Source of the DNA: a virus
Strand: one strand, 5' to 3'
IMG/VR virus record: IMGVR_UViG_3300027834_000279
Span: 1-37,985 of that record
Length of the DNA: 37,985 nt
The translations under genes were made by a program, and so were the position numbers. Shown here one piece after another: positions 7,505-36,912 of the stretch. Below the pieces are notes generated by a model. It worked only from the letters and a program-made list of their open reading frames with translations, searched no databases and was not told the origin of the DNA. Position 1 is the first letter of the stretch, and each line of letters starts with the position of its first letter.

Positions 7505-7546
7505 GAAAGACATTAATAGAATGGTGGAGATATCCTACCGTGTCAA
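7505..7546 (-). promoter_or_regulatory. Early leftward promoter region (TTGACA box)
   Basis: On the minus strand a perfect TTGACA -35 box lies at 7546-7541, overlapping the repressor start codon. A weak -10 (CATTCT/TTCTAT) follows 17-19 bases downstream. This would start the early transcript near 7505 and place the promoter under the divergent repressor. The -10 is poor, so the assignment is tentative. Confidence 0.45.
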
Positions 7547-9292: not shown

Positions 9293-9300
9293 GGGGAAGT

Positions 9301-12615: not shown

Positions 12616-12689
12616 TATTAGCAGCAGGGAAAGCGACAGGCAAACGCTAATGTACGTCGCTTAATGTGGAGCAAGCACAGGGCAACAGC

Positions 12690-21652: not shown

Positions 21653-21747
21653 GGTGACTCCTGCGCAGGTTCACTGTTCGAGTAACGAAAAGGGTGAATT
21701 CACGCAGGTATCGTGCGGGGGCTTTAGAGAGGGTGGTAGCGGTGGTG

Positions 21748-21771
21748 GGTGTGAGTGGGACGGTTTACACC
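21748..21771 (-). promoter_or_regulatory. Late-promoter activator dyad (P_F equivalent)
   Basis: 24-bp dyad GGTGT-N14-ACACC (inner bases GAGTG...GTTT) about 100 bp before FI. It has the same design and length as the sites at 29400-29423 and 35066-35089. By position it corresponds to the P2 F-operon late promoter, where Ogr binds. Confidence 0.75.
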
Positions 21772-21819
21772 GTGGGGTGTGGTAAGGTGCGAGAAAGTGA
21801 CTGTTAAGGGAATGTTGGG

Positions 21820-22410
21820 ATGAGCGGGACAGAATTAATGCTAAAGAGCTTTGGCGTAGCTTATCGTGGCTATATGGCATGGAAGTTCGAAAGGCTCCTT
21901 CAAAAAGCAGAAGCCCATGGTATGACTGAAGAGGAGTTATGTAACAGTGACCAACGATTTGCTCTTTTTATGCGGGTGGGAAGAGCATTTGAGACCTGCT
22001 CAGAAAGAGAGGTAGTGGATTACATTGCTGACGCGATGGTTGGAGGCGTCAAGTGTGGTGACGCTGATGCAAAGCCGGATTTCGCTCAAATGGCACTTTC
22101 ATCACTCTCGGGAGCTACAAAAGTTGAATTAGATATTTTGCTTTTACTCAGGAAACATCAGCGCTACACGTTAAACGTTGGTGAAGTCGAGGATAAAGAA
22201 AAAATTAATGAATACGTAGATGAATGTTGTCATGCTTTAGGGATTGATTCTCTTATGCTCGCGTCTTTATCACACAGTATGGCAAGAACTGGATTGGTAA
22301 CTCCAACCTCAAGTGGCTGGGGTGGTTTAGTGAACCATACCAATACATTGACGCCATTGGCGCGGCAATTATTCCACTATGTTGATTACTCAAGGCGGCT
22401 TACCCTATAA
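21820..22410 (+). CDS. Unknown accessory protein at Z/fun-like hotspot
   Basis: 196-aa protein, no family recognised with confidence. A helical N-terminal half (FGVAYRGYMAWKFERLLQKAEAHGMTEEEL) leads to a middle segment ATKVELDILLLLRKHQRYTL and a C-terminal part that reads like a small winged helix (LGIDSLMLASLSHSMARTGLVTP...NTLTPLARQLFHYV). The general shape recalls DUF4393/Abi-alpha-type phage-exclusion proteins, but this is only an impression. It is transcribed against the late genes, with lower GC, and sits between FI and the tail-fibre genes where P2 carries Z/fun. Ribosome site GGGA. Confidence 0.72.
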   Translation: MSGTELMLKSFGVAYRGYMAWKFERLLQKAEAHGMTEEELCNSDQRFALFMRVGRAFETCSEREVVDYIADAMVGGVKCGDADAKPDFAQMALSSLSGATKVELDILLLLRKHQRYTLNVGEVEDKEKINEYVDECCHALGIDSLMLASLSHSMARTGLVTPTSSGWGGLVNHTNTLTPLARQLFHYVDYSRRLTL

Positions 22411-22430
22411 GCCTGCCGGATGGCAGGCTT
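22409..22430. terminator. Terminator between convergent accessory genes
   Basis: Perfect stem AAGCCTGCC / GGCAGGCTT around a GGAT loop immediately after the stop of the plus-strand gene. On the plus strand CATTC follows; on the minus strand the outer AAGCC arm reads into ATAGGG. It separates the two convergent genes. Confidence 0.75.
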
Positions 22431-22437
22431 CATTCAA

Positions 22438-22758
22438 TCACGATTGAGATATTTTCTGAACTTTAACGCCTGCTGAAGAGAAAGCAGCGGCTACATCATC
22501 AATCGAAGCAACATTGATAGCAACTTCTATTTCAAGGTCGACAGTCTTTCCTTTTAGCTCCAACATCGATACTGCATGTTCATAGGCTTCGGCTGGGTTG
22601 GAAAAGACCATATTAACTCTTACAAACTCCCCAAACTCTTTATCAGATATAAATAAGCGCGTGGCATTGTTGCTTTCATTTAGATCAATCATGATATGGT
22701 GAACTTTGTCATGTTCGATAATTCTTACCTTTTGGATTCCTATGTATGTGTCATTCAT
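22438..22758 (-). CDS. Unknown accessory protein at Z/fun-like hotspot
   Basis: 106 aa with AGAGGAAAT upstream. It reads as a mixed beta/alpha protein (VRIIEHDKVHHIMIDLNESN, FISDKEFGEFVRVNMVFSNPAEAYEHAVSMLELKG, VDLEIEVAINVASIDDVAAAFSSAGVKV) with no signal peptide or membrane segment. Unrecognised. It converges on the 196-aa gene across a terminator. The two may be partners or independent cargo. It has a ~130-bp AT-rich upstream region of its own, so it is probably expressed in the lysogen independently of the late operon. Confidence 0.7.
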   Translation of the reverse strand: MNDTYIGIQKVRIIEHDKVHHIMIDLNESNNATRLFISDKEFGEFVRVNMVFSNPAEAYEHAVSMLELKGKTVDLEIEVAINVASIDDVAAAFSSAGVKVQKISQS

Positions 22759-22890
22759 ATATTTCCTCTTTAATAAACTATCAGCTGGAATGCTGATAAT
22801 GTTTACCTTTAGTTAAGTGTAATTATTTCCTGAGTTAGTGCCTCATTCTGTCATGTTTTGTAAAGGCTGCCAATCGGAGGGGGATTGCAT

Positions 22891-23442
22891 TTAAGGCACT
22901 TTGCCATGTGCTCGCGCCGCCTCAAACGCCCCGACAATATCAAAGGCGTGCAACTCTTCGGCACCTTCGGCGGCGTTGATTAAATCGCTGACTTGCCGTT
23001 CCGCTTTGAAGCACCCCTGCACATGCTGAGCCACCGCTTGGGCGATGGGGCGAAGCTCAGCCTCGGTAACCGTGACCCAGCCACCTGCGGCTTTCCATTC
23101 AATCTCATCCACGAACGGCTGTGTGAGCGTTTGAAATGCACTCGTAAGCTGCGCCTGGCTTTCGCGATCAGTGAGGATACGTGATCCATCGGGTAGCTCA
23201 ACGCCGCCGGTTTCGATCTCAAAGCGGTGGGCCGCGAGGGCGCTTTTCAGCTGGTCACGTAGGTAGTCGAGCGACGGTGGTTCTAAGCTATCGCCGTTGG
23301 CGATGTAGTCGTGGTTGATCAACCCTTCCAGACTTTCCGGTACCGGCAGCCAGCGAATGGAAGGGTGAAAGCGGCCTTGTGGCTCAAAGTCGATAAACTC
23401 AGCGCAACGGTTGTCATCGGTAATACGCACATAGCGGGTCAT
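22891..23442 (-). CDS. Tail fibre assembly-like protein (DUF4376)
   Basis: 183 aa. The central block LRDQLKSALAAHRFEIETGGVELPDGSRILTDRESQAQLTSAFQTL...VDEIEWKAAGGWVTVTEAEL matches the DUF4376 region of phage tail-fibre accessory proteins, seen behind fibre genes in the place of P2 G. It probably helps fibre folding or attachment. It overlaps the preceding small gene by 4 bp. Confidence 0.82.
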   Translation of the reverse strand: MTRYVRITDDNRCAEFIDFEPQGRFHPSIRWLPVPESLEGLINHDYIANGDSLEPPSLDYLRDQLKSALAAHRFEIETGGVELPDGSRILTDRESQAQLTSAFQTLTQPFVDEIEWKAAGGWVTVTEAELRPIAQAVAQHVQGCFKAERQVSDLINAAEGAEELHAFDIVGAFEAARAHGKVP

Positions 23443-23633
23443 GGTTCAGGCTCCCATAAGGTGGTGCCGTGGGCATCGCGCACGGCGGTGATTTGGATGG
23501 CATCAATCGGGTGGCCGGTGAGAATATGCACGGCGGTTGCCGCTTCGGCCTGGGCGTCGAAGATGCCCTCGGCGTTGACGGTGGCCACGCCGGGCGCGAC
23601 CGGCGTGGCGTAGCTCACGGTGTACTGGCTCAC
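23439..23633 (-). CDS. Small tail-fibre-linked hypothetical protein
   Basis: 64 aa (MSQYTVSYATPVAPGVATVN...GHPIDAIQITAVRDAHGTTLW), no recognised domain. It is locked between the fibre gene and the DUF4376 gene by four-base overlaps on both sides, so it is translated with them. It may be a fibre accessory or chaperone. Confidence 0.72.
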   Translation of the reverse strand: MSQYTVSYATPVAPGVATVNAEGIFDAQAEAATAVHILTGHPIDAIQITAVRDAHGTTLWEPEP

Positions 23634-26191
23634 GAGGCGTTATCCGGGAACGAGCGGCCCGGCCCCCAGATAATGCGGATAGCGCCCTGGGCGCCCCGTT
23701 CGTTGTACATGCCTGCGCCACCGCCGCCATAAAGGCCCCCGCGAGCATAGCTGCCGTTTCCACTACTGCCGCTTGCGCCTTCTTCACCGTTACTGCCACC
23801 ACCGCCGCCGACGCCCGCTCGATAGCTGGTAGGGGTGCTGTCGCCTGGACTGGTGCCAGCCTGACCATTGTCGGCTTGGCCGTAGATACCTACACCACCC
23901 CCCGCGCCGCCGTAGCCATAGCCGCCACCACCGCCGCCACCAGCACCTGGTGTGCCGTTTGAGTAGTTGTGTCCGCCGTTCCCTCCTGGCCCGGTATAAC
24001 CGCCAGCTCCTGCGCCGCCGCCATGGCTTAAAGTGGTGTAGGGGTTTTCACCGCCATTACCGCCGCCGTCAGCACCCACGGGCTTGCCGCCTTGGGAGGG
24101 CGCGCCTCTAGTACCTCCGGTAGCACTAAATAGGCTACCAAATGAGGAGGAACCTCCTGCCTCTGTTGAGCCATCGCCAACCGTTATCTGAATAACGTCA
24201 CCGGGTGTTACCGGAATGTCATTTTTCCAGGCCAAGCCACCACCGCCACCTTGATTGCCGCCACCCGCGCCGATACCAACAGCGCATACCGAGTTAACGC
24301 CAGCAGGCACCACCCAGTCCGTGGTGCCCACGTTGGTGAATATGGCTTCCCCCGTCGGGATGCCGGTGACAAAGGTAGACCACGCTGACCAGGGACTGTA
24401 GCCAGTGGTCGCCCCCTTATAGCGAACGCGAGCCTCGTAGTCGGTCAGCGCGATCAGCGATATGCCAGGTACGACCCAACTGGTCAGGTTAGCGCCGTCG
24501 TCAGTGCGGCTCGCGACCGTCTCCCCGCTGCTGGCATCACGCACTTCCCAGTCTGAAGCGACATGGGCTTCGCCGCCGCCGGGGAAGCTGAAGCTAGAGG
24601 CGGTCACGGTCAGGCCATTGTTAAAAGCCACGTCCGTGGTGCCATCGGTCGGAGCGGTAATGCTCGGTTGGTCGGCACTGTTGGTGGTGGTAAATCCGCG
24701 CACCACTGACCAGTCTGACCAGCCCAGTGCCGTACCTTGGTGACGCACACGCAGGTAGTGGCGTGTTTCACGGGCCAGGGCGGTGGTGATCTGGTGGCTG
24801 AGAAGGTCGGTCACCGTGCCGCTGTCGTAAACCATCACCCCAAAGGCGCTGTCAGTGGCGATCTGGTACTGGCTGGCCGCGTGGGTGTCGGTCGTGCCGA
24901 CCGCTTCAAAGTCGGCGGTGACGATGGCGGGCAGCAGGCTGGTTCGGGTGGCGTCGGCGGAAGGCGAGGAGATCACCGGCGGCGCTACGTACTCAAAGAC
25001 CGCCCCGGTAGAAAAACCGCTCGGCTTTGACCAGGGCGACCAGGTGCCTTCAGCATCCTGATAGCGGCAGCGCCAGAAATAGACCTGGTTGGTGGTCAGG
25101 TAGCCGCTGGCCACGGTGTGCTGGGTGGTGGGTGTGGGTTCGCTGCCCTGGTAGACGATATTAGCGAAGTCAGCATCGGTGGCGACCTCGAACTGGGCGG
25201 CCTGGTGGGATATGCCGTAGAGAGAGTAGTAGGCGTCACCGGTGAGCGCTGGGGTCTCCATCACATCAGTAGCGCCTTCACCGGGCGCGACGTTGGTGGG
25301 TTGGCGTACAGGATCGGCGCGACCGGCTCGGACTTCGGGCAGGCACACCAGGTAGTGGATCTCGATCAGTTGGCCGCTGTCGCCTAGCTGGGTCTCGACC
25401 TGCAGCTCAATGGTGCCACCCACCGGTAGACGAAACTCAAGATCGGTTACGCCATCCTCAGTGGAGGCTGAGCGTTTGAGCGGGGCATTCAGCCAGCCGG
25501 TGGTCGGAGCATTGGTGCGACGTGCCTTGACGCGCACGCTGCCGTCGCCCGCCACGCGCCGCACGATCAAACGGCCGGCGTCGTCGTAGCGCAGGGTTTT
25601 GATCTCCCGGGAGAAGTAGCGGCCGTTTCCGGCCAGGGCAAAGCCTGCGCGGATATCCCAATTGGTGCGCGCCAGGTGGCCGCTGTTGGTACGGGTCTTG
25701 CCCAGGGTCGCGGTGGCCCGGAAGCGGGTGGCGGTAAGGATCGCCTCGACCTCGACCACCTCGCTTGTGCCATCGTCATCATGGATAAGGTAAGCGTCGC
25801 CCACGACCAGGTTATTGGTGGTGGTCACGTCGACGGACTCATCCCCGGCCACGGTGGCGACAATGGCCGACGGGGCGTAGTCCCGCCAGGTATAGGCGGC
25901 ATCGGCGAACAGCTCAAAGTCAGCGCCCTGGTCGGACTCAGCCAGCCAGATGGGAAATGCGCGGCCGACCGATACCGAGCCAGAGATCTCTACTGACTGT
26001 AGGCGTTGTTCATAGGCGGTGGTGCGCTTCTCCAGGGGCTCAACCCGGGCGAGCAGGTAGTCGTCACGCTCGGCGAGCTGCTTATGGGGCAGGTTGTCGA
26101 TGCCGTCGAGCCCGCCGGTGACCGGGTCGGTCTCTTCGAGCACGTAGACATCGGGAAAATCGGGGGTTTCCTTACGGGGAATATTGGCCAT
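23630..26191 (-). CDS. H: Tail fibre / adhesin with Gly-rich tip
   Basis: 853-aa receptor-binding protein in the place of P2 H. Residues ~1-300 form a shaft/attachment region starting MANIPRKETPDFPDVYVLEETDPVTGGLDG. Residues ~300-650 hold about three fibronectin-III-like repeats (QPTNVAPGEGATDV..., EVATDADFANIVYQG, RVRHQGTALGWSDWS, RVRYKGATTGYSPWS). Residues ~665-835 are a very Gly-rich tip (GGGGGGGYGYGGAGGG) ending QGAIRIIWGPGRSFPDNAS. Such tips in other adhesins pack as polyglycine-II helices and bind receptors. It should determine host range. Confidence 0.88.
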   Translation of the reverse strand: MANIPRKETPDFPDVYVLEETDPVTGGLDGIDNLPHKQLAERDDYLLARVEPLEKRTTAYEQRLQSVEISGSVSVGRAFPIWLAESDQGADFELFADAAYTWRDYAPSAIVATVAGDESVDVTTTNNLVVGDAYLIHDDDGTSEVVEVEAILTATRFRATATLGKTRTNSGHLARTNWDIRAGFALAGNGRYFSREIKTLRYDDAGRLIVRRVAGDGSVRVKARRTNAPTTGWLNAPLKRSASTEDGVTDLEFRLPVGGTIELQVETQLGDSGQLIEIHYLVCLPEVRAGRADPVRQPTNVAPGEGATDVMETPALTGDAYYSLYGISHQAAQFEVATDADFANIVYQGSEPTPTTQHTVASGYLTTNQVYFWRCRYQDAEGTWSPWSKPSGFSTGAVFEYVAPPVISSPSADATRTSLLPAIVTADFEAVGTTDTHAASQYQIATDSAFGVMVYDSGTVTDLLSHQITTALARETRHYLRVRHQGTALGWSDWSVVRGFTTTNSADQPSITAPTDGTTDVAFNNGLTVTASSFSFPGGGEAHVASDWEVRDASSGETVASRTDDGANLTSWVVPGISLIALTDYEARVRYKGATTGYSPWSAWSTFVTGIPTGEAIFTNVGTTDWVVPAGVNSVCAVGIGAGGGNQGGGGGLAWKNDIPVTPGDVIQITVGDGSTEAGGSSSFGSLFSATGGTRGAPSQGGKPVGADGGGNGGENPYTTLSHGGGAGAGGYTGPGGNGGHNYSNGTPGAGGGGGGGYGYGGAGGGVGIYGQADNGQAGTSPGDSTPTSYRAGVGGGGGSNGEEGASGSSGNGSYARGGLYGGGGAGMYNERGAQGAIRIIWGPGRSFPDNAS

Positions 26192-26217
26192 AGCGGTGCC
26201 TCTTTAATCCTGCAGGG

Positions 26218-26571
26218 TTAGAGCTGAAGTTCGAACCAGTCGCCCAGTTCCATGTCGGGGGTTTTCTCAATCGCTGAGCCGCGTGCAACCCGAGCGATGA
26301 GCACACCGTCAGCGGTGAACAGGCCGATCTCTCGAATCATCAGGCCATTGGCCTCGCTGGGGGCGAGCGTCCAGTACACGCGAATCGCCCGGGGGCTCTC
26401 GGGGTCGACCTCAATGCGCTCGATGGGCTTGCGGTAGCCGCCCTCCAGCGCGCTGTCTTCAAACATTTCGGTGGTACCGGCGGTACCAAAACCGACCTCG
26501 GCGACCACCGCGGCCGGGTCAGCAGATGCCAGCAACCGCCCCAGCGCGGTATAGAACCCTTGGGTAATCAT
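26218..26571 (-). CDS. Tail-collar fibre N-terminal-type protein
   Basis: 117 aa: MITQGFYTALGRLLASADPAAVVAEVGFGTAGTTE...RVYWTLAPSEANGLMIREIGLFTADGVLIARVARG. This matches the N-terminal fibre domain family (DUF3751-like) that in P2 is part of H. Here it is a separate polypeptide between I and the big fibre gene, probably bridging baseplate and fibre. It overlaps I by 4 bp. Confidence 0.82.
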   Translation of the reverse strand: MITQGFYTALGRLLASADPAAVVAEVGFGTAGTTEMFEDSALEGGYRKPIERIEVDPESPRAIRVYWTLAPSEANGLMIREIGLFTADGVLIARVARGSAIEKTPDMELGDWFELQL

Positions 26572-27584
26572 GCGAATGCCTCGTGTTGTGTCATGGGGTG
26601 ATAGCGGTGATGGCCACCGCGGAGCTGCCCGCTGCCGTAGGTAACAGCGCCGCGGCGTTCAGGGCCGAAGCCCTGGCGAGTGAAGCGCCCGTTGCGGGGC
26701 AGCGTGCGGGTAGTGCGCAGGGTTGGCGGTGTCACGGTGGCCATCGGCAGGCCACGGCGTGCAGAGCCATCAAAGGCCAGGCGGCCGTCCCGAGGGAGCA
26801 GGGCCTCCCAGGTCAGTGAGGTGCGCAGGTGCAGGCTGAGTGGCTGTCGCCAGTAGAGCCTGCCCGCTTGATAGCGGGTGGTCGCCACTACCACTCGCTC
26901 GCTGCGCCGGGTCTCGCCGTTGAAGCGCAGCTCGCCATCGCGGCGGTAGCGGCGCACGCTGCCCCGGGGCAGGCGACCATCGCGAACGCCTTTGGCACGG
27001 CGTAACTGCAGCCCCACCGCGAGCGGCAAGAACAGCTGGGCAGGGCGATCCACGGCGCTGGAGAGATTGGCGCGGAAAGTGAGCGCGTAGAGGTGCGAGC
27101 GAGCGTTTTTGTAGTACTCGATGATGTGCCGGATACGAGCGATGCGTTGGCGGTCGAGCCCTTCCTGATTGCCCAGGTCAACCGCGACCCGAAACAGCGC
27201 CCAGCGAGCCGCCCCCGCAAAGGCGTGGTGGCCATCTCGGGCAATCTCGCCATCATGATGAAGGGCGGGCAGCCCTTCGATGATCTCGGCATCGCGAAAG
27301 CCGAGCAGCTGCATCCCCCGGCGCACGGCGTAAGGTGTGCCCTTGTAGCGGTGCAGATCGATACTGGTTGCGACCAGGGTGCGGCGCTCCTGGTCGCTAC
27401 GTGCAAAGCGCCACTCCTCTTCAATGGAGAGCGCCCAGGCTAGGTAGGGCAGCAGGTCGGCGGGGATCGTTGCCGGGTCCCACAGCTGCCGAAGCGGGCT
27501 AGGCAGTTCGCTGATGATGCCCGTGGTATCGGCAATGCGCCGCTCAAGGAGCGTAGTGTTGGGGGGTAGCAACGAGGCACTCAC
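26568..27584 (-). CDS. I: Baseplate protein gpI with long C-terminal extension
   Basis: 338 aa. The first ~200 residues are P2 gpI-like (LLPPNTTLLERRIADTTGIISELPSPLRQLWDP, LLPYLAWALSIEEEW, KGTPYAVRRGMQLLGF). P2 gpI is much shorter, about 176 aa. Here ~140 extra residues are Arg-rich with a repeated motif (RRDGELRFNGETRR, PRDGRLAFDGSARR, PRNGRFTRQGFG). The extension may carry an extra docking surface for the split fibre. Four-base overlaps on both sides. Confidence 0.88.
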   Translation of the reverse strand: MSASLLPPNTTLLERRIADTTGIISELPSPLRQLWDPATIPADLLPYLAWALSIEEEWRFARSDQERRTLVATSIDLHRYKGTPYAVRRGMQLLGFRDAEIIEGLPALHHDGEIARDGHHAFAGAARWALFRVAVDLGNQEGLDRQRIARIRHIIEYYKNARSHLYALTFRANLSSAVDRPAQLFLPLAVGLQLRRAKGVRDGRLPRGSVRRYRRDGELRFNGETRRSERVVVATTRYQAGRLYWRQPLSLHLRTSLTWEALLPRDGRLAFDGSARRGLPMATVTPPTLRTTRTLPRNGRFTRQGFGPERRGAVTYGSGQLRGGHHRYHPMTQHEAFA

Positions 27585-28444
27585 GGCGTAACCTCCGTGG
27601 TCAGCTCCAGGCCCGCCAGAAAGGCGGCACCATGGTCGGGCATATCGAGATCCTGGCTAGGCATGGCCAGGGCGATACGGCGCACGCCCGGGCGATGCAG
27701 GGCGGCGGCAAAGCCGGAGAGCGCCACAAAGGCGCCCAGGGCATGACGGCTATCGGCGTAGGCCCGCACAGCGGTTTCTGCTGCGGCGCGTACGGTCTCG
27801 GCGGAGGGGCCGGGTTCGACGATCAGCGTGGCCTGCAGCGTATAGGGCGTTACCTGAGCGGCGACCACATCAACGCTGTCGGTCAGGGGGCGAACCCGCT
27901 CATCGCTGACGGCAGCGCGCACCGCCTCCAGCACGGCCTGACTTGGGGTGCCGTCGCCGCTTTTGGCCAGAATCACCAGCTGCACGTGGCCAGGGGTAGG
28001 GCTGGTGACGGCGACATCGCGCACATCGGCATGGGCGCTGCGGGCATGAAAAGCGTAAGCGCCTACCGAGCCGGTGGTGGGGTAACTCTCCAGGGCCATG
28101 ACGCTGCGCTGTCGCAGGGCGTCGTCGTTTTCGTTCTCAAGGCGGGTAACGCCAAACAGGGCCGCCAGGTGATCCAGGTCGCTGCCGCGGGCCGTGGCCA
28201 CCATGACTGCTTTGGCCGCTTCGTTGATGCGCTGACGCAACACCAGCTCCCGATAGGCGTTCTCTTCCAGCAGCTTGACCAGCGGCTCGGACTCCAGGGC
28301 GAGCAGCTCGGAAATGGCGTCCTGCTCCTCTTCGGGGTAGAGGGTGATAAGTCGCGCTTTGCGCTCAGCCAGGATCGTTTCATAGTCGAGTGGCTCGATG
28401 ATGTTGGGCGCGGGTAGCCGGGAGAGATCGATGGGGCTGTTCAA
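27581..28444 (-). CDS. J: Baseplate protein gpJ
   Basis: 287-aa gpJ homologue of the baseplate wedge family. Signature segments: IDLSRLPAPNIIEPLDYETILAERKARLITLYPEEEQ, LVLRQRINEAAKAVMVATARGSDLDHLAALFGV, YAFHARSAHADVRDVAVTSPTPGHVQLVIL. Length and location between W and I are as in P2. Confidence 0.94.
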   Translation of the reverse strand: MNSPIDLSRLPAPNIIEPLDYETILAERKARLITLYPEEEQDAISELLALESEPLVKLLEENAYRELVLRQRINEAAKAVMVATARGSDLDHLAALFGVTRLENENDDALRQRSVMALESYPTTGSVGAYAFHARSAHADVRDVAVTSPTPGHVQLVILAKSGDGTPSQAVLEAVRAAVSDERVRPLTDSVDVVAAQVTPYTLQATLIVEPGPSAETVRAAAETAVRAYADSRHALGAFVALSGFAAALHRPGVRRIALAMPSQDLDMPDHGAAFLAGLELTTEVTP

Positions 28445-28791
28445 AGGTTCCCCCTTAGCGGCACGGCCAGGCTAACGTTTTCACCGGTATCCACGCGGCG
28501 GGCAGTGATAATGAGATCAAAGCGGCCAGGGCGCTGGGTGGAGACCTGGCGGGTGACTTGCTGTACGCGAATGCGCGGTTCCCACTTCATTAAGGCCACC
28601 ACCGTGGCGGCGTAGGCGCGCAGGGCGGTGGGGCCGTTTAGGGGTTGGTCGATCAGTTCTGGCAGCAGCGAGCCGTACTCCCGGCGCATCACGCGGGAGC
28701 CAATGGGCGTGGTGAGAATATCCGCCACGGATTGCTGGATATGGGCCAGCGCATCTAATCGGCGGCCGTCTTTTGCATTCATACCTGCCAT
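28441..28791 (-). CDS. W: Baseplate wedge protein gpW
   Basis: 116-aa gpW/T4 gp25-like protein. The conserved ILTTPIGSRVMRREYGSLLPELIDQPLN block is the family hallmark. It joins the sheath to the baseplate. Overlaps J by four bases and V by one base. Confidence 0.94.
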   Translation of the reverse strand: MAGMNAKDGRRLDALAHIQQSVADILTTPIGSRVMRREYGSLLPELIDQPLNGPTALRAYAATVVALMKWEPRIRVQQVTRQVSTQRPGRFDLIITARRVDTGENVSLAVPLRGNL

Positions 28792-29354
28792 TACACTGGC
28801 CCCTGGGTGTTGGCGGGGCCGGGCTGGATGCCGCTATGGGCGTGGTCGTGCCCTACGTTTTTGCCGTTATGGGTAAGCCCGCCACCTTGCTGCTGGTAGC
28901 TGCCTTGCCGGTTTAATTCGCCGATGTGTTTGATGTTGCCCTGCCAGGTGGTGCCACCGGGGGCGGTGATCTCGATGGCTCCGGGCAGGCGAATGCGCAG
29001 CACGCTGTTGGCGTGGTCGTACTCGAACAGCCCTTGATCGGGGAACAGCCTGCGCCACAGCGCGGCGGAATCTGTAGGCGCTGGATGCGCGTTGGAGAAA
29101 AGACCAGTAAGCACCACGCCAGCGGCGGGGTCGCCGCCAGGAGAAAAAATAATTACTTGCTCGCCCTTAGTGGGCGGGTCCCAGTCCCGCGTGGTGCCTG
29201 CGCGGCCTTCGATCCACGGCAGCCAATCGGTGAGCAGTTCGCCGGTTTTAACGCGCACCCGGGCAGCGCGGTGATCCACCTCGTCGATGGTGCCGAGGCG
29301 GATCAGGTTGTGCAGTAGGCGGAGCAGTTCCGCGATGTTCACGACGTTGTTCAT
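28791..29354 (-). CDS. V: Baseplate spike protein gpV
   Basis: 187-aa P2 gpV homologue, the tail-tip spike that pierces the outer membrane. The N-terminal OB-fold (NIAELLRLLHNLIRLGTIDEVDHRAARVRVKTGELLTDWLPW) is followed by a C-terminal part with HNGKNVGHDHAHSG that resembles the metal-binding spike tip (H-x-H). The start matches P2 V and follows an AGGAT site. An activator dyad lies 46-69 bp upstream. Confidence 0.94.
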   Translation of the reverse strand: MNNVVNIAELLRLLHNLIRLGTIDEVDHRAARVRVKTGELLTDWLPWIEGRAGTTRDWDPPTKGEQVIIFSPGGDPAAGVVLTGLFSNAHPAPTDSAALWRRLFPDQGLFEYDHANSVLRIRLPGAIEITAPGGTTWQGNIKHIGELNRQGSYQQQGGGLTHNGKNVGHDHAHSGIQPGPANTQGPV

Positions 29355-29399
29355 AGCCGCTATCCTGCGGCGAGGTTTGGCGAAGGCGAAGCAGCGGCG

Positions 29400-29423
29400 G
29401 GTGTAAGTGGGGTGATTTACACC
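29400..29423 (-). promoter_or_regulatory. Late-promoter activator dyad (P_V equivalent)
   Basis: 24-bp dyad GGTGT-N14-ACACC (inner AAGTG...ATTT) between S and V, centred 57 bp before the V start. Same design as the other two late sites; position equals the P2 V late promoter. A weak -10-like CAGGAT lies 33 bp downstream. Confidence 0.78.
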
Positions 29424-29430
29424 GAGCCGC

Positions 29431-29889
29431 TTATACCGAGCTTAGATGATGAAGCACTGAATCCATGATGTGCTCTTGATCCAGCGCGGTGAAACCCAGC
29501 AGCTCCCGTTGGGCGTACTCCACGCGGGGGCCGTCGCGGCTGACGCGATCTTTCAGGCCGCGTTGGTGAGTGATGGCGATGCGGGCGACGTTGCCGAAGA
29601 AACCCACCACGGCGGTGTCGCCCTGGGCGGTGGCCTTGAGCCACTTGGCGCTGGAGAGCTTACTGAACATGACTTGGCGTTTGATGCTGCCTTGCTGGGC
29701 GCGCAGGCGTTGTTCCTTCCGCGGGGCGTAGGGCGTGCCGTCCGGATTGGTTTGGGCGCGGATTCGCTCCCGCTGCCTGCGGCGAAGATCACGCGCTACG
29801 TTGCGGGCCAGCGCCCGGCGCTGCTTAACATCCAGCTTGGCCAGGAGCGGACCGACCCACTCCTCTAACGCTTCCATATTATCCGCCAT
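29431..29889 (-). CDS. S: Tail completion protein gpS
   Basis: 152-aa gpS/virion morphogenesis protein (ALARNVARDLRRRQRERIRAQTNPDGTPYAPRKEQRLRAQQGSIK, then ITHQRGLKDRVSRDGPRVEYAQRELLGF). The start at 29889 has GGGAAGG five bases upstream and overlaps the end of R; the longer frame to 29943 is not supported. It completes the tail-head joint region. Confidence 0.92.
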   Translation of the reverse strand: MADNMEALEEWVGPLLAKLDVKQRRALARNVARDLRRRQRERIRAQTNPDGTPYAPRKEQRLRAQQGSIKRQVMFSKLSSAKWLKATAQGDTAVVGFFGNVARIAITHQRGLKDRVSRDGPRVEYAQRELLGFTALDQEHIMDSVLHHLSSV

Positions 29890-30373
29890 GCGGGCCTTCC
29901 CATTCGGCGGCCAGTGTGTAGACGGCGTCTGCCTCGCTATCACGAATCAACAGCTGCCAGCGAGGGGCCGGGCAGCCGGTAACATCGAAGCGGGGCAGGG
30001 CGTGATCGACCTTGATCTCACCATTGTCGCAATCCATCTTGGCCAGCACACGCTCGGTCAGCTTCACCCGCAGGGCGACATCCACGGATTTGTGGCTGAG
30101 AATCTCGGCTTCAAAACTGATGGCTTCCGTTGGATCAACATCCGGCTGGTATTCGGCCAGCCATTTCAGCAGCGGCACGATGATGGTGTCGAGATCCGCA
30201 CTGAAGTCGGTGAGTACCAGTTGGGCGGTGAACCGGTACTCGTGGGTGAGGTTGGGGCCCCGACGAAATTCGATGCTGCCCTCTTCCACGAAGGTGAGCA
30301 GCCGCTCGGGATCGTTGGCGAGCGCCGGTACTGCGTTAATCAGGTGAGCGCGAAGCAGGTGGAGCTTTTTCAT
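29879..30373 (-). CDS. R: Tail completion protein gpR
   Basis: 164-aa gpR homologue: MKKLHLLRAHLINAVPALANDPERLLTFVEEGSIEFRRG...HEYRFTAQLVLTDFSADLDTIIVPLLKWLAEYQPD. Start at 30373, inside the 3' end of the Rz1-like gene; the longer frame adds ten unlikely residues. Sits between the lysis cassette and S as in P2. Confidence 0.92.
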   Translation of the reverse strand: MKKLHLLRAHLINAVPALANDPERLLTFVEEGSIEFRRGPNLTHEYRFTAQLVLTDFSADLDTIIVPLLKWLAEYQPDVDPTEAISFEAEILSHKSVDVALRVKLTERVLAKMDCDNGEIKVDHALPRFDVTGCPAPRWQLLIRDSEADAVYTLAAEWEGPHGG

Positions 30374-30626
30374 CAGCATTCTCGTGACAAGCGATGACGG
30401 CATCGACCTCGGCGGCGCACTGTGCCCAGGCGGCTTCGGTGCGTTCCAGCTGCAGGTCTAGCTCGCCATTGGTGAGCGGGTTACTGGCGGGGAGCGTGCA
30501 GGGGCTCGGCGTCGCGCACTGATTGGTGATAAGCATCGGCGCCGGTGATGGCGGGGCGTTGGCGCATCCGGCTAATAGCATCAGGCAGGCGAGCGGTAGC
30601 CCAAGCGCGAAGCGTTTCATTTTCAC
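30336..30626 (-). CDS. Rz1-like outer-membrane spanin lipoprotein
   Basis: 96 aa. The GTG at 30626 has GGAG seven bases upstream; ATG 30620 is the alternative. KRFALGLPLACLMLLAGC is a lipoprotein signal with the lipobox LLAGC. A Pro-rich part (ANAPPSPAPML) follows. The 5' half lies in another frame within the Rz-like gene, as usual for LysB/LysC or Rz/Rz1 pairs. The lipoprotein joins the inner-membrane spanin to fuse the two membranes in the last lysis step. Confidence 0.88.
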   Translation of the reverse strand: MKMKRFALGLPLACLMLLAGCANAPPSPAPMLITNQCATPSPCTLPASNPLTNGELDLQLERTEAAWAQCAAEVDAVIACHENADEKAPPASRSPD

Positions 30627-30903
30627 GGTGTAGCTCCTCGATGGTGGTAAGGCGGTTGGAAGCGGTGCGGGCCAGCGCCGCTTGCTGCTGTGCCAGGGCG
30701 CGGCGCTGATTGGCCTGGCGTCGGGCGTTGTCCCATAGCGCATTGATGACCACCCTATTTTGCGCTTCGCGCTGTAGGGATTCGGCCAGCTGCTGTTCGG
30801 CGAGATCGGCGCGGGCCTCGGCGGCATTGGTGCGCTGCCAGAGCGCCCAGGTGACCAGCAGCACCAGGCCCAGAATGGCGAGGGCGGCGAGTAGGCGCGT
30901 CAT
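30481..30903 (-). CDS. Rz-like inner-membrane spanin (LysB type)
   Basis: 140 aa. One N-terminal membrane segment (LLAALAILGLVLLVTWALW) is followed by a long periplasmic coiled-coil (NAAEARADLAEQQLAESLQREAQNR...RRALAQQQAALARTASNRLTTIEELHRENETLR). The start overlaps the endolysin stop as ATGA. Partner of the embedded lipoprotein gene. Confidence 0.9.
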   Translation of the reverse strand: MTRLLAALAILGLVLLVTWALWQRTNAAEARADLAEQQLAESLQREAQNRVVINALWDNARRQANQRRALAQQQAALARTASNRLTTIEELHRENETLRAWATARLPDAISRMRQRPAITGADAYHQSVRDAEPLHAPRQ

Positions 30904-31385
30904 GGTGTTGGCTCCTGTTCCAGCCCGGCCAAACACAGTTCACGTTCGGTGGTGCGGCGTTTTACCAAACCGTTGAGTCTTCGCCCGCTGGCATACACCC
31001 AACGGGAGAGCTCGTGGCAGGCGCCGCGTAGATCCCCGGCGTTGAGTTTGCGCAGTAGGGTGGAGCGGGCGAAGTTGCCTGCCCCGACGTTGTAAACGAA
31101 GGAGGCGAGCGCGGCGCGGGTGGGTGCTGGCAGTTCGACCTGGGCGCGGCGATCTACTACCGCGAAGGCATCGCCCAGATCTTGCTGCAGTAGGGCGGTG
31201 CATTCAGCCTGGCTAAGGGTTTGCCCCAGGCGGGCGGTTTCCGTGTGGCCGTAGCAGATGGTGGGTATGCCCACTGGGTCACGGTAGGCGGTGGGTTCGT
31301 ATCCTTCGTAAAACGAGACCACCGCGGTGGCGATACTGATGGCCCCGGCGGCCAGGCTGACGCCGAGTTTGGTTTTAAGACCCAC
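30900..31385 (-). CDS. SAR endolysin (GH24 lysozyme)
   Basis: 161-aa T4-type lysozyme. The triad Glu27-x8-Asp36-x5-Thr42 lies in YEGYEPTAYRDPVGIPTICYG. The N-terminal ~20 residues (LGVSLAAGAISIATAVVSF) are a weakly hydrophobic Gly/Ala-rich signal-arrest-release anchor, so it is exported by Sec and held inactive in the membrane until the holin depolarises it. GTG start overlapping the holin end by 11 bp. It cleaves peptidoglycan. Confidence 0.92.
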   Translation of the reverse strand: MGLKTKLGVSLAAGAISIATAVVSFYEGYEPTAYRDPVGIPTICYGHTETARLGQTLSQAECTALLQQDLGDAFAVVDRRAQVELPAPTRAALASFVYNVGAGNFARSTLLRKLNAGDLRGACHELSRWVYASGRRLNGLVKRRTTERELCLAGLEQEPTP

Positions 31386-31578
31386 GGCGTTTCTCCCAGT
31401 AGTCGCGCAGGCGGGTGAGGTAGCGGGGAACCAGCAGCCCGATCTGCAGCGCGAGATAAAGCAGCGTTAGCACCGTGACCCAGTCGGCGGGCGTCATGCC
31501 GCCGACATGCAGCAGCGAGACGATGGCCGGGGGCGTGACCTTGGCGCTTTCGGTGGTGATTTCAAAGTGGTGGCTCAT
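31375..31578 (-). CDS. Holin
   Basis: 67 aa. A single strong membrane segment (WVTVLTLLYLALQIGLLVPRYL) follows a polar N-terminus (SHHFEITTESAKVTPPAIVSLLHVGGMTPAD) and is followed by a basic tail (RLRDYWEKRRG). Size, topology and position directly before the SAR endolysin identify it as the holin, possibly of the HP1-like family and a pinholin. It times lysis. Confidence 0.82.
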   Translation of the reverse strand: MSHHFEITTESAKVTPPAIVSLLHVGGMTPADWVTVLTLLYLALQIGLLVPRYLTRLRDYWEKRRGS

Positions 31579-31601
31579 TCGGGCCTCGGCGGTTTAAATC
31601 G

Positions 31602-31811
31602 TTAATCCCACAGGTTCACCGTGGGGGCGCGTTGGGTGGCCTGGGGGATGGTGGGCATCGTGACCGGGGTGCCATGGGGCAGCACCGGCCCCAGTTCTGC
31701 TAGCCACGGGTTGGCGTTCAGCACCTGTTCGGTGACACCACGGGTGGTGCCGTAGAAGCGGTAGCAGATGGCATCCAGGGTGTCGTGCTGTTCGGCATGT
31801 ACCAGCGTCAT
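31602..31811 (-). CDS. X: Tail protein gpX (LysM-like)
   Basis: 69 aa: AEQHDTLDAICYRFYGTTRGVTEQVLNANPWLAELGPVLPHGTPVTMP is the gpX family with its LysM-like fold. It attaches in the P2 tail hub region. Overlaps L by four bases. Confidence 0.93.
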   Translation of the reverse strand: MTLVHAEQHDTLDAICYRFYGTTRGVTEQVLNANPWLAELGPVLPHGTPVTMPTIPQATQRAPTVNLWD

Positions 31812-32281
31812 ATCAGCTCGACCGTGCTATGGGGGCGGCCTTCGATCTCGCTGATCGCCCAGGCGGCATCGCGGCGGTAGCCATCGGCGGGATCTTGCAG
31901 GTTTTCGCCACGCTCCCGGCCGCTGTTGGTGGCGTCATAATCCGCGTAGCGTTCCAGCAGGCTGGCGTGGGCCGTGGAGTAAACGGCGCGCAAATAGAGC
32001 ACGTTGAAGACTTCCGGCGTTTGCCAGACCGGAATGGGTAACGCTTCCATAGTGGGGTAGCCCGCCTCGACCTTGGCCTGCTGCCAGTGGCGCAGTACAC
32101 GGTTCACCGTGGCCATGGCGGCCTTCAGTGCGGTTACGATGCGGGCGTTGGTAATGGTGGTATCCAGCCGGTGGGTTTCCCTGAAGTCGCTAGGCTGGAT
32201 CGCTGGCCAGAAGCCATTATTTTCAATAATGGTGGCTTCGGTTTCGTTACTGTTGGTGCCTGCCGAGATAAAGCTGCTCAT
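31808..32281 (-). CDS. L: Head completion protein gpL
   Basis: 157-aa gpL homologue: FWPAIQPSDFRETHRLDTTITNARIVTALKAAMATVNRVLRHWQ...VYSTAHASLLERYADYDATNSGRERGENLQDPADGYRRDAAWAISEIEGR, covering the family length. It closes the filled head for tail joining. Confidence 0.94.
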   Translation of the reverse strand: MSSFISAGTNSNETEATIIENNGFWPAIQPSDFRETHRLDTTITNARIVTALKAAMATVNRVLRHWQQAKVEAGYPTMEALPIPVWQTPEVFNVLYLRAVYSTAHASLLERYADYDATNSGRERGENLQDPADGYRRDAAWAISEIEGRPHSTVELI

Positions 32282-32395
32282 CGGGTTACCTCTTTATATT
32301 GGCCGTTTATGTAAAAGGGGGTGGGCGGCGTTCGAGCGGCAGCGTTAAACGCTTGGCTCTTACGTCGCGCCCCCTGACGTCGGCGGTCGACTCGG

Positions 32396-33079
32396 TTAGC
32401 TGTCAGCCTTGGGCTGCGCAGCGTTTTGTTTCAGCTCGCGTTCCAGGCGCTCAAGATCTTTCTTCACGCCTATGCGGTCGTTGAGCCCTAGGGCGCGCTC
32501 CAGATTGACTTGGGCATCTTCCAATTGACCTGTCGCCCGGCAGGCGTAGCCCAGGGCTTTGTGCAGCTTGGCGCGGATCTGGTCGTGCATATCCGCATCA
32601 CGGGTAAGTAGCTCCACATCGATCAAGTGAACAAGCAGGGCGGTGGTGTCAGCGTCCTCTTCATCCAGCTTTTTAAGCGCTTGGTCGGCGACCTCTTCAG
32701 CGATGATGGCGGCGGTACCACGCTCGAACTGATCCGGCGGGGTGAGGCCGTGCTGGATGGCGTACTTGGCGATCGCAATGGCCCCGGCAAGGTCGCCGGC
32801 ATCGATGCGCCAGAGCATGACGCGCATCAGTACGTCGTCCTGGGCGCCTTGCCCTGCTTCCAAAACGCCGGTGATGTAATCGGCGTACTTGGGCAGGATC
32901 TCGCGCTTGATCTCGGCCTTGCGTTCCATGGATTGAGTGGATTTGAGCAGGCGGTAGTCTTCAAACAGCGCGGCTTGCATGAGCTCGAAGGCTTCGCCTT
33001 GCATGGGGGCTTCCCCTGCGTCAGCGGCCGCGAGGGCGGCGCTGACGCGTTCAAAGTGGCGGCGGGCTGGGCTGGTCAT
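32396..33079 (-). CDS. M: Small terminase subunit gpM
   Basis: 227-aa gpM homologue: SPARRHFERVSAALAAA, AFELMQAALFEDYRLLKSTQSMERKAEIKREILPKYADYITGVLEAG, DVLMRVMLWRIDAGDLAGAIAIAKYAIQHGLTPPDQFERG. This subunit recognises and helps cut cos DNA together with P. It starts two bases after N. Confidence 0.95.
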   Translation of the reverse strand: MTSPARRHFERVSAALAAADAGEAPMQGEAFELMQAALFEDYRLLKSTQSMERKAEIKREILPKYADYITGVLEAGQGAQDDVLMRVMLWRIDAGDLAGAIAIAKYAIQHGLTPPDQFERGTAAIIAEEVADQALKKLDEEDADTTALLVHLIDVELLTRDADMHDQIRAKLHKALGYACRATGQLEDAQVNLERALGLNDRIGVKKDLERLERELKQNAAQPKADS

Positions 33080-33081
33080 CG

Positions 33082-34152
33082 TTACTCCGTTATCCCGTTG
33101 CGAGCGGCTTCAGACAGCTCGATGTTTTCCACCAGGCAGCCTGCACCGAAGTCCTCGACCACGTAGGCGTCGTTGGAGGATTCGTAGTTCTCGATGCGGT
33201 TGCGCTTGGGGTTCTCGGTGACGTAGCGGCGGCGGGCGCCGTTCTGCCAGTAGACCGAGAGGTTATCCAGGGTGGTGACCATCAGCGCGTTATCGGGGAA
33301 GAAGGGCACATCCATGCCTTGCAGCCCACCGATGCGCTTCTGGCTGATGACCAGATCGGCAGCGAGTTGCTCGCTGGGCGGTAGCTGGTTGAGCAGCGGG
33401 AAGTACTTATCGGCCATAAGATTGCGGCCAAGGATGACCACCAGCCCAGGTAGTCGGCGGAACCAGGGGTCGATAAGGCTGCCGATGATGTCGTAAACCA
33501 GGGCATCCAGTGAGGCGTAGTCGCCTAGAATGGCGCCCGTTAATTTGCCTTCAGTATTTCGCTCTGCAGTTGGATCAATGAGAATTTTGCCGTTGGTTTT
33601 GCCGTCTTTCATCACTCGCTGAGGCGCCTGGGTGCGGTAGTGCTGCAACCAGCCGATGTTGACGTCTTCCAAATAGGGGTTGGCCACCGGGTCGGTTTGG
33701 GTAGCGGCGGAGGTGCCGTTGAAGCCAATCATCATGCGATCCAGCGCCTGCTGGCGAACGATCACATCGCGCACCATGGCCTGGAAGTTGGGGAACTTGG
33801 CCCAGGCATCCAGCTTGGCGTAGCCCAGGTGGGTGTCGAATTCGGTCATTCGGCACTCGTAGCCTTGGGCATCCAGCGTTGTGAGGTCGCGGGTTTTGCG
33901 ATCCTGGTTGTTGACGTTGGTGCGGGCGGCGATAGGGCCGGTAACACCCATGGCGAGCTTTTCGCCTTTCAGTTCATCGACGCCGACCATGTTGATGCGC
34001 GAGAGGAAGTCGCTGGACTCCTGGATGCGCTTTTCCAGCCGCTGCTGGATGGTGGGGTCGACGGCGAATTTCTGGGTGGCATCCGGGACGCCGTTTAGCT
34101 TTGCCACCTGGGCGGCGAAACTGTTGAAGTGCGTGCGGGTATCGTTGCGCAT
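33082..34152 (-). CDS. N: Major capsid protein gpN
   Basis: 356-aa P2 gpN homologue: HFNSFAAQVAKLNGVPDATQKFAVDPTIQQRLEKRIQESSDFLSRINMVGVDELKGEKL, LDAWAKFPNFQAMVRDVIVRQQALDRMMIGFNGTSAA and the C-terminal NGARRRYVTENPKRNRIENYESSNDAYVVEDF. Length matches P2 N (357 aa). In P2 the first ~31 residues are removed by the O protease. Confidence 0.96.
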   Translation of the reverse strand: MRNDTRTHFNSFAAQVAKLNGVPDATQKFAVDPTIQQRLEKRIQESSDFLSRINMVGVDELKGEKLAMGVTGPIAARTNVNNQDRKTRDLTTLDAQGYECRMTEFDTHLGYAKLDAWAKFPNFQAMVRDVIVRQQALDRMMIGFNGTSAATQTDPVANPYLEDVNIGWLQHYRTQAPQRVMKDGKTNGKILIDPTAERNTEGKLTGAILGDYASLDALVYDIIGSLIDPWFRRLPGLVVILGRNLMADKYFPLLNQLPPSEQLAADLVISQKRIGGLQGMDVPFFPDNALMVTTLDNLSVYWQNGARRRYVTENPKRNRIENYESSNDAYVVEDFGAGCLVENIELSEAARNGITE

Positions 34153-34167
34153 GGGCGTGGGCGTCTC

Positions 34168-34986
34168 TTAGCAGTCGGTTTCGATGGTGCCGTCGTTGCC
34201 GGTGGCAGGCTTGCGCGACGGGCGGTTGGGGGTGTTGTCGAGCTGGGAATAGAGCGCATCGAACTCTTTTTTCAGCGTGTTGTGGGCGCTTTTGAGTTCA
34301 TTGAAGGCGGCCTGGGTGGGGCGCTTTTTCAGGGCTTCGCTAAGTGCCTGGTGTTTTTCCACGAACAGGCCGAGGGTCTCTTCCAGGTCGGCGCGGAAGG
34401 CAGTGAAGCCGGCTTCTGTTTTGGCGTCCTGCTTTTTGAACAGCGCTTTGACGCGCTCGGCCAGTGACGGGCCTTTCTCTTCCTGTTCCTCTTCCTCGCT
34501 GAATGAGAGTTCGGTTTCGATAGCTTCAGAGAAGAGGTTTTCCGGGCGCTGTTTACGGGCGGCCAGCGGGGAGTTTCTCCCCTCGGAAGCACTGAACTTG
34601 AGCATGGAGGTGCCAAGGGAGGCAGGGTGGTCGGTGACGGCTAGGCCGACCAGATACGCCTCGCCGGAATCGGCAAAGTCGAGGTCGATCTCCATGGAGG
34701 TGTAGATCTTCTGGCGTTTTTCGACCATGGCCTTGAGCTCATCGGTCGGGTCGATCTCGGCGTATAGGCCGAGCTTACCGTCGTCGCCTTCTTCGGTTTT
34801 GAGCGCAGTCACGTCGCCGTAGGCTTTGAAGGGGCCTTCCGGTAGCAGGCCTTTGATGTGTTCCATATTGACCCGGCAGCCGTAGTTGTCGGGGTCGAAG
34901 TTGGCGGCCATTTGAGTGAGCCATTCGGCGCTGATGGTGCGGCCATCGGTGGTTGCGCCTTCTTTTGCAATGCGGTGCCAGGGCAT
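34168..34986 (-). CDS. O: Capsid scaffold and protease gpO
   Basis: 272-aa gpO homologue. The N-terminal protease half has the expected triad positions: Asp14 (TTDGRTI), His43 (NMEHIKG) and probably Ser97 (YTSMEID). Asp-His spacing is 29 as in P2 (Asp19, His48). The C-terminal half is a helical scaffold (HQALSEALKKRPTQAAFNELKSAHNTLKKEFDALYSQLD). First gene of the O-N-M-L-X-lysis-R-S operon, with an activator dyad ~80-103 bp upstream. Confidence 0.95.
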   Translation of the reverse strand: MPWHRIAKEGATTDGRTISAEWLTQMAANFDPDNYGCRVNMEHIKGLLPEGPFKAYGDVTALKTEEGDDGKLGLYAEIDPTDELKAMVEKRQKIYTSMEIDLDFADSGEAYLVGLAVTDHPASLGTSMLKFSASEGRNSPLAARKQRPENLFSEAIETELSFSEEEEQEEKGPSLAERVKALFKKQDAKTEAGFTAFRADLEETLGLFVEKHQALSEALKKRPTQAAFNELKSAHNTLKKEFDALYSQLDNTPNRPSRKPATGNDGTIETDC

Positions 34987-35065
34987 GGTCGGGCCTCGGT
35001 GTGTGGGTTGGGCGTTTGGCTGCGGTCAGGTTCCCCGCACACGCGGCTTGGCTCAATGAGGGCTG

Positions 35066-35089
35066 GGTGTAAGTGACGTTACTTACACC
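35066..35089. promoter_or_regulatory. Shared late-promoter dyad between O and P
   Basis: 24-bp dyad GGTGT-N14-ACACC; the two 12-base halves are mirror images except for one position. It lies between the divergent O and P genes, centred 57 bp before P and 91 bp before O. By position it could serve both the P2 P_O- and P_P-type late promoters. Confidence 0.8.
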
Positions 35090-35133
35090 GGGCGGGGCAA
35101 TCGTGGCTGCGCCTGCGCGGGTACGCTGGCGGC

Positions 35134-36912
35134 ATGACGCCTCAAGCCAACATCGACGACGACCACTACCGCCTTTCTGCCCGCCATCTTTTTTGGATGG
35201 GGTGGCGGATTGCGCGCATTGCCGAGTTCCTGGAGATACCCAGGGCGACCATTGATTCGTGGAAAAAGCGCGACTCATGGGACGACGCAACGCCGACCCA
35301 GCGGGTAGAGGGGGCGCTGGAAGCGCGCCTGGTGCAGCTGATTTGGAAGGAGCAGAAAGAAGGCAAGGATTTTAAGGAGATCGACCTGCTGGGCCGCCAG
35401 ATCGAGCGGTTAGCCCGAGTGCATAAGTACCAGGGCAGCGGGAAGGAAGCCGACCTGAACCCCAACATCGAGCGCCGCAACGAGGGGCCGAAGAAGAAGC
35501 CCGCCCGTAACGATGTAGGCGATGAAGGGGTGATTCAGATTGTCGAGGCGTTCGAGGCCTCGCTGTTCGATTACCAGCGGGGCTGGTATCGGGCAGGGCA
35601 ACATGAGCGCATCCGTAACTTGCTCAAGTCGAGGCAGATCGGGGCGACGTGGTACTTCGCTCGGGAGGCGATTGCCGATGCCATGGAGACCGGTAAGAAC
35701 AAGATCTTCATGAGCGCGAGCAAGGCCCAGGCGCATATTTTCCGCCATTACATCGTGCAGTTTGTGAAGGAGGTGACCGGGGTGGAGCTCAAGGGCGACC
35801 CCATCATTCTCTCTAATGGTGCAGAGCTGCACTTTCTCGGTACCAACGCCAAAACCGCCCAGGGTTACCACGGCGATACCTACTTAGACGAATACTTCTG
35901 GATTCATGGCTTCGAGACGTTCCGCAAGGTGACGTCGGGCATGGCGATGCACAAAAAGTGGAAGCAGACCTACTTCAGCACGCCATCGTCCGTGGCCCAT
36001 GAGGCGTACCCGTTCTGGACGGGTGACCGGTTCAACAAACGCCAGAAGAAAGCCGACCGGGTCAAGATCGATGTAAGCCATGCGGCCTTGAAGAACGGGG
36101 CACGTGGGCCTGATGGCCAATGGCGGCAGATCGTGACCATTGAGGATGCGATTGCCGGGGGCTGTGACCTGTTCGACATCGATCAGCTGCGCCTTGAATA
36201 CTCGGATGATGAGTTTGCGAACCTGCTGATGTGCGAGTTCGTGGACGACACGCAAAGTGCCTTCCCGCTGGCGATGATGCAGCGCTGCATGGTGGATAGC
36301 TGGGATGCCTGGCGAGATTTGAAACCCTTCGCGCCGCGGCCTTATGGCGAGCATCCGGTATGGATCGGCTATGACCCGGCCGGTGATGGTGAAGATGGCG
36401 ATGGGGCGGGTCTGGTCGTAGTCGCACCGCCGAAAACCGTCGATAGCAAGCACCGCATTCTGGAACGCCATCGCCTCAAAGGCCGCGATTATGAGGCCCA
36501 GTCCGAGTTTATCCGCAGCGTGACCCAGCGCTATAACGTGACCTTTATCGGCATCGATACCTCGGGTCTCGGTGAAGCCGTGGCCCAGCTGGTGGCGAAG
36601 TTCTTCCCCACCGTCACACGTTACCGCTATACCCCGGAAATGAAGTCGCGCCTGGTGATGCAGGCGCAGCAGATCATCAATAAAGGGCGTCTTGAATTCG
36701 ATGCTGGGTGGGTGGATCTCGCCCAGTCGTTTATGGCGATCCGCCGGGAGCTGACTGCCTCCGGACGCCAGATGACCTACACCGCCGGGCGCAATAACCA
36801 GACCGGCCACGCTGACCTGGCGTGGGCGACCATGCACGCCTTACACAATGAGCCACTCGATGGCCCGGTCGATCACGGCACGGGCCGTTCCCTAATGGAG
36901 TTATACGGATGA
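35134..36912 (+). CDS. P: Large terminase subunit gpP (ATPase)
   Basis: 592-aa terminase. An N-terminal helix-turn-helix (RIARIAEFLEIPRATIDSWKKRDSW) precedes the ATPase with the P2-type Walker A LKSRQIGATWYFA and Walker B/DE motif TYLDEYFWIHG. A nuclease domain follows, starting IGYDPAGDGEDGDGAGLVVV with acidic metal ligands and IGIDTSGLGEAV. It packages DNA from cos ends. Overlaps Q as ATGA. Confidence 0.96.
   Translation: MTPQANIDDDHYRLSARHLFWMGWRIARIAEFLEIPRATIDSWKKRDSWDDATPTQRVEGALEARLVQLIWKEQKEGKDFKEIDLLGRQIERLARVHKYQGSGKEADLNPNIERRNEGPKKKPARNDVGDEGVIQIVEAFEASLFDYQRGWYRAGQHERIRNLLKSRQIGATWYFAREAIADAMETGKNKIFMSASKAQAHIFRHYIVQFVKEVTGVELKGDPIILSNGAELHFLGTNAKTAQGYHGDTYLDEYFWIHGFETFRKVTSGMAMHKKWKQTYFSTPSSVAHEAYPFWTGDRFNKRQKKADRVKIDVSHAALKNGARGPDGQWRQIVTIEDAIAGGCDLFDIDQLRLEYSDDEFANLLMCEFVDDTQSAFPLAMMQRCMVDSWDAWRDLKPFAPRPYGEHPVWIGYDPAGDGEDGDGAGLVVVAPPKTVDSKHRILERHRLKGRDYEAQSEFIRSVTQRYNVTFIGIDTSGLGEAVAQLVAKFFPTVTRYRYTPEMKSRLVMQAQQIINKGRLEFDAGWVDLAQSFMAIRRELTASGRQMTYTAGRNNQTGHADLAWATMHALHNEPLDGPVDHGTGRSLMELYG

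Follow-up and report, generated by a model that had tools for sequence, protein, structure and literature searches.

The window analysed here is a virus record of 37,985 bases from a P2-like phage; among named phages it is closest to Halomonas phage vB_HboP_4908 and to a phage recorded as Bacillus phage vB_BpuM-ZY1. Its genes follow the order Q-P / O-N-M-L...S / V-W-J-I-H / FI...D, as in P2. The rightward late operon PQ starts with the terminase large subunit P (35134–36912, + strand; 56% identity to P2 gpP) and continues into the portal protein Q (36909–37985, + strand), which is assigned from its position and the annotation of relatives and reaches the window end. On the opposite strand lie the capsid scaffold O (34168–34986; 42% identity to P2 gpO), first gene of the leftward late operon, the baseplate protein V (28791–29354; 35% identity to P2 gpV), first gene of the V operon, and the tail sheath FI (20468–21652; 62% identity to P2 FI), first gene of the FI operon. 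Within the baseplate region gpJ (27581–28444) shares only 44–56% identity with its counterparts in several relatives, and in those relatives V, O, P and FI stand at about 88–98%; this divergence looks like a recombination patch. At 8774–10647 there is a Pycsar-type anti-phage module, comprising a PycTM-like effector and a PycC-like cyclase.

What lies ahead of these late operons? An earlier note had read three 24-bp dyads of the form GGTGT-N14-ACACC, and all three sequences were confirmed in place. The first, GGTGTGAGTGGGACGGTTTACACC (21748–21771, read on the − strand), is 96 bp upstream of FI; the next, GGTGTAAGTGGGGTGATTTACACC (29400–29423, − strand), is 46 bp upstream of V, just beyond the end of the S gene; and GGTGTAAGTGACGTTACTTACACC (35066–35089, belonging to neither strand) stands 80 bp from O and 45 bp from P. 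All are intergenic. The pattern has 3 matches in the whole window against an expected 0.03, and none of 100 shuffles reached 3. With a position matrix built from 52 distinct sites of relatives, the window excluded, the three dyads scored 34.7, 34.3 and 29.0 bits, and no other place in the 38 kb exceeded 3.8 bits. The motif scan of the whole window thus returned only the three dyads, and not the many equally good sites inside coding regions that the earlier note had thought might tell against them. No sigma-70 promoter match and no terminator was found at any of the three.

The exact P2 form, TGT-N12-ACA, has 8 matches in the window (4.8 expected), of which 5 lie in a umuDC-like region at 13.0–14.2 kb and none at a late promoter. 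We considered the palindromes at 13036, 13561, 13584, 14173 and 14196 as alternative Ogr sites and rejected them, since all are in the umuDC-like region. At these positions an 18-bp palindrome, TGTAAGNGATCTCTTACA, recurs, its tandem partners spaced by 23 bp; the copies lie at and behind a umuD-like sequence and a partial duplication of it (about 14.03–14.18 kb).

The GGTGT-N14-ACACC dyad, which we call class A, is kept in relatives at all three places, with 22 distinct sites for V, 12 for F and 20 for P; the F dyad was not found by pattern in a few relatives (L104, L162 and L097). At V and F sites the gene-distal half is mostly GGTGTAAA(C/T) and the gene-proximal half mostly GGTGT(G/A)AG or near it. 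At O/P sites most halves read GGTGTRAGT, and the window's own O/P dyad has the RAGT signature in both halves. Such halves would fit an O/P operator that combines two gene-proximal halves, one for each direction. Other P2-like relatives (L007, L064 and L036) have P2-like Ogr proteins and, before their late genes, very different palindromes, GTTTGCTCAT..ATGAGCAAAC.

How does this arrangement compare with P2 itself? The P2 record (NC_001895) annotates activator sites at 3057–3087 (one site, labelled pO and pP), 10239–10266 (pV) and 17555–17583 (pF), equivalent in place to the O/P, V and F dyads of the window. The annotated transcription starts are 3016 and 3127, 10308 (the A of the V ATG) and 17626–17628, and the centre of the site for pO and pP is 55–56 bp from both starts. 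The claim that the dyads sit exactly where P2 has its late promoters was thus borne out: the gene junctions are the same three, and the P2 starts are about 55 bp from the site centre. From P2 we infer that the dyads mark all late promoters of this phage. That the O/P site may drive both directions is likewise a sound prediction, P2 listing one activator site for pO and pP; it is hence a known feature and not a new one. With P2 (PMC3931495) the window shares the three junctions, the common O/P site and an Ogr-family protein; starts about 55 bp from the site centre and a V start at the V ATG, as in P2, are predicted for it. It differs in its half-sites (GGTGT/ACACC, with TGT and ACA 14 bp apart where P2 has 12) and in symmetry, the P2 sites being ragged (TGT-N12-CCA, for example) and the window's near-symmetrical. 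The description of the motif as a wider relative of P2's holds if one counts from TGT to ACA, 14 against 12, although spacing variants were already published.

These variants come from the Ralstonia phages RSA1 and RSY1 (PMC5694545), in which TGTTGT-N13-ACAACA is the single dyad type at four late promoters, −50 to −90 from the start codon. Like the window, they have an Ogr homologue; unlike it, their spacing is 13 and their half-sites are TTGT. Phage 186 (NC_001317) also resembles the window in having a C4 zinc-finger activator and, according to its record, a single B site that is assigned to pV as well as p12; a further B-protein site is listed before pJ. Its half-sites, GTTGT-N12-CCA, are different. 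In K139 and O18P a simple scan found no recognisable P2-style dyad between P and O.

If the dyads are operators, where would transcription start? The dyad centre is 56.5 bp from the ATG of P and 57.5 bp from that of V. Both distances fit a predicted start some 55 to 57 bp from the dyad centre, which would leave the transcripts of P and V with no leader or almost none; by analogy with P2, a PV start about 57 bp from the centre would coincide with the V ATG. The putative −10 regions are conserved: GCAGGATAGCGG for PV (29357–29368, − strand) and GCACGATACCTG for PF (21705–21716, − strand), each 31 bp beyond its dyad, and GGTACGCTGGCGG for PP (35120–35132, + strand), just ahead of the P start. V and F have in common a conserved GCA(C/G)GATA element at those 31 bp. 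These putative elements are weak, and at P the element stands about 5 bp closer to the dyad than at V and F; a −10 hexamer shared by all four promoters could not be derived. A divergent ORF of 196 residues (21820–22410), for which no family match was found, has its ATG 60.5 bp from the F dyad centre, and the F operator might drive this ORF as well.

Which protein would read the dyads? Only one Ogr protein is encoded in the window, an 85-residue zinc-finger activator of the Ogr/Delta family (6153–6410, − strand; Pfam PF04606, E 1.6e-10, 41 bits against a cut-off of 26.3), and it is predicted to bind all three. Its gene adjoins a replication gene, whereas in P2 ogr lies behind D. Among solved structures none with a matching sequence was found for this small protein.

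We surveyed the upstream regions of V, P/O and F across P2-like phages and found TGT–ACA spacings of 12, 13 or 14, with few exceptions a single spacing in each phage. Among 73 distinct phages, 139 of 157 promoter pairs agreed in spacing within a phage, compared with a mean of 71 and a maximum of 93 in 2000 shuffles. Spacing 14 is found in the window's clade, 13 in many phages of Pseudomonas, Chromobacterium and Salinicola and in other Halomonas phages, and 12 in L210 as well as in P2 (PMC3931495) and 186. An artefact of register was rejected because the half-site CGTTGT occurs both with N13 (L096, L098) and with N14 (L126 and satellites L333–L339, described below). All three dyads of the window have spacing 14, and none has the interrupted form TGT-N12-ACA; since surveyed and published relatives use 12, 13 or 14, we regard the window's dyad as a spacing variant and not as the P2 consensus.

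Does the spacing go with the activator or with the genes that it would control? For each locus the Ogr protein came from its own record or from nearby on its contig, and ambiguous cases (L088, L094, L101, L114 and L126) were excluded. On the Ogr tree, which has 65 columns and modest support (78/72 for the N14 branch, with one side of a branch recovered in 76% of bootstrap trees), the N12, N13 and N14 classes need 2 changes, the minimum; the trees of terminase P and sheath FI each require 6. With so few columns single branches are weak, and the argument is the contrast between trees. The window's protein groups with the Ogr proteins of other N14 phages. The N13 phage L170 falls with strong support within the N14 group on the terminase tree, and the N14 phages L106, L107 and L109 within an N13 group; on the Ogr tree each joins its own spacing class. 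In L151 the terminase is 95% identical to the window's, yet the O/P operator is of another class and the Ogr protein on another branch. In L151 and L152 (terminases 88–95% identical to the window's) the O/P flanks and the GGTACGCTGGCG element are kept and the dyad arms are different. That spacing tracks Ogr and not the controlled genes is the strongest evidence from sequence that Ogr reads the dyad. We also weighed a one-residue code for spacing: at the position preceding the third zinc cysteine, phage Ogr proteins of the N14 class have E or H, and those of N12 and N13 mostly Q. It was rejected, as L168 (N13) and several N13 satellites have E; the pattern may be phylogenetic.

We conclude that the observation is real and was rightly interpreted, the operator being a spacing variant of the known Ogr–B–delta system of P2, 186 and P4. 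In the reading we prefer, to which we give a probability of about 0.93, the three dyads would be the operators of the phage's own Ogr-type activator, in an N14 class that evolves with Ogr. Silencing of the late genes in the lysogen, by LexA or by an S24-type repressor of the phage, would also account for palindromes upstream of genes that must then be off, and the window does encode two S24-peptidase proteins (7540–8226 and 12666–13040). However, no matching site occurs at the early or repressor region, where nothing exceeds the 3.8 bits of the next best place, the class of site follows the Ogr phylogeny, and the P2 sites at the equivalent places are annotated as activator sites; we consider such silencing very improbable. 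RNA hairpins between the operons, whether terminators or leader structures, are barely credible. The arms can pair as RNA, best at O/P (9 bp), but the inner arms at V and F pair poorly (AAAY against RAGT), none of the three dyads is a terminator-like site, a terminator between the divergent P and O would be senseless, and transcripts are expected to start only downstream of the dyads.

Could a host DNA-binding protein, IHF-like or another regulator, use the dyads while Ogr acts elsewhere? Host factors do participate in many phage promoters. We searched the strict class-A pattern in 275 Halomonadaceae genomes, with the reversed pattern as control, and found 16 matches in 12 genomes (5 for the control). 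Among 15 loci examined, 11 were at P2-like late genes, 2 in P4-like satellites and 2 unrelated and apparently due to chance (L289, L290). For a host regulator one would expect further sites in other places, and spacing differs among phages of one host family; a host protein is accordingly a highly unlikely reader of the dyads.

On the Ogr operator reading, then, induction would be followed by synthesis of Ogr from the early or replication region. Ogr would bind both halves of each dyad and recruit host RNA polymerase to weak promoters, with starts about 55–60 bp from the dyad centre; one operator would serve P and O in opposite directions and the other two V and FI. Binding, activation and the exact start points we infer.

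The two class-A loci in P4-like satellites (genomes G300 and G312) sit in integrated elements with a tyrosine integrase adjoining a tRNA and a gene that resembles defence genes (Fic for L301, AbiJ for L302), followed by the dyad, AlpA, a Toprim primase and a DUF927 helicase. L302 encodes a protein of 138 residues whose two Ogr-type fingers recall the build of P4 delta, and a protein of L301, the only satellite searched for this family, matches the Psu-like family phrog_6165 (E 7e-6). Neither epsilon nor Sid was identified in L301, L302 and their relatives. Further elements gathered by helicase similarity extend the family to L301, L302 and L333–L360, all in Halomonadaceae genomes, with integrase at a tRNA, cargo, AlpA, Toprim, DUF927 helicase and often a delta-like Ogr, which is tandem in several. 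At a 5-of-7 symmetry level, 27 of 29 close elements with a placed alpA have an N13 (11) or N14 (16) dyad within 300 bp upstream of alpA; other spacings there number 0 (N11), 0 (N12), 1 (N15) and 1 (N16), with about 0.01 expected per 300 bp. The dyads fall into classes that phages of the same family use. In the Salinicola genome G041, phage L098 and satellite L345 have identical 10-bp arms, CGTTGTAGAT/ATCTACAACG. Genome G035 has a class-A phage together with a satellite whose N14 class is different; within one genome, then, the classes of helper and satellite do not always agree. P4, the satellite with the PLL/Psid sites and delta, likewise has a dyad upstream of an AlpA-family gene (TTGT-N12-ACAA, at 111 bp from vis, where L301 has its dyad at 102 bp from alpA), a tandem delta-like Ogr and a primase-helicase, and it shares the Psu-like protein with L301; the Halomonadaceae satellites differ in their N13 or N14 dyads and in having primase and helicase as two genes. 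A published survey of P4-like elements reports them from Enterobacterales (PMC8628076). By extension, helper phages would activate the Halomonadaceae satellites and be hijacked by them.

What do these comparisons add? The placement of the sites, the two-way O/P site (P2, and the single B site of 186 for pV and p12) and the N13 spacing of Ralstonia phages were known. Added are a spacing that follows Ogr rather than its target genes and a satellite family with matching sites; in the open-licence papers searched we found neither described. We think it rather probable that P2-like phages use operator dialects (spacing 12, 13 or 14 plus half-site class), uniform in each phage and inherited or exchanged with Ogr and not with its target genes, and that the so far undescribed Halomonadaceae satellites carry the same dialects before their alpA-replication operon, so that activator specificity would set which helper switches on which satellite. 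The late regulon of a little-studied group of Halomonas phages can be identified from its DNA alone; the 12/13/14 series with matched activators is a natural experiment in half-site reading by a small zinc-finger activator as the helical phase varies, and the satellites offer a test of helper–satellite specificity outside Enterobacterales.

Two unusual forms of the activator were met in the survey. The P2-like phage L280 (in the record of L168) has an Ogr with two tandem fingers in one frame of 192 residues, like P4 delta. Satellites L333 (8064–8855, − strand), L335, L338 and L340 encode proteins of 264–298 residues in which an Ogr/Delta zinc finger is joined to a hydrolase domain of the isochorismatase type; in the L333 protein both Pfam domains score above the cut-off.
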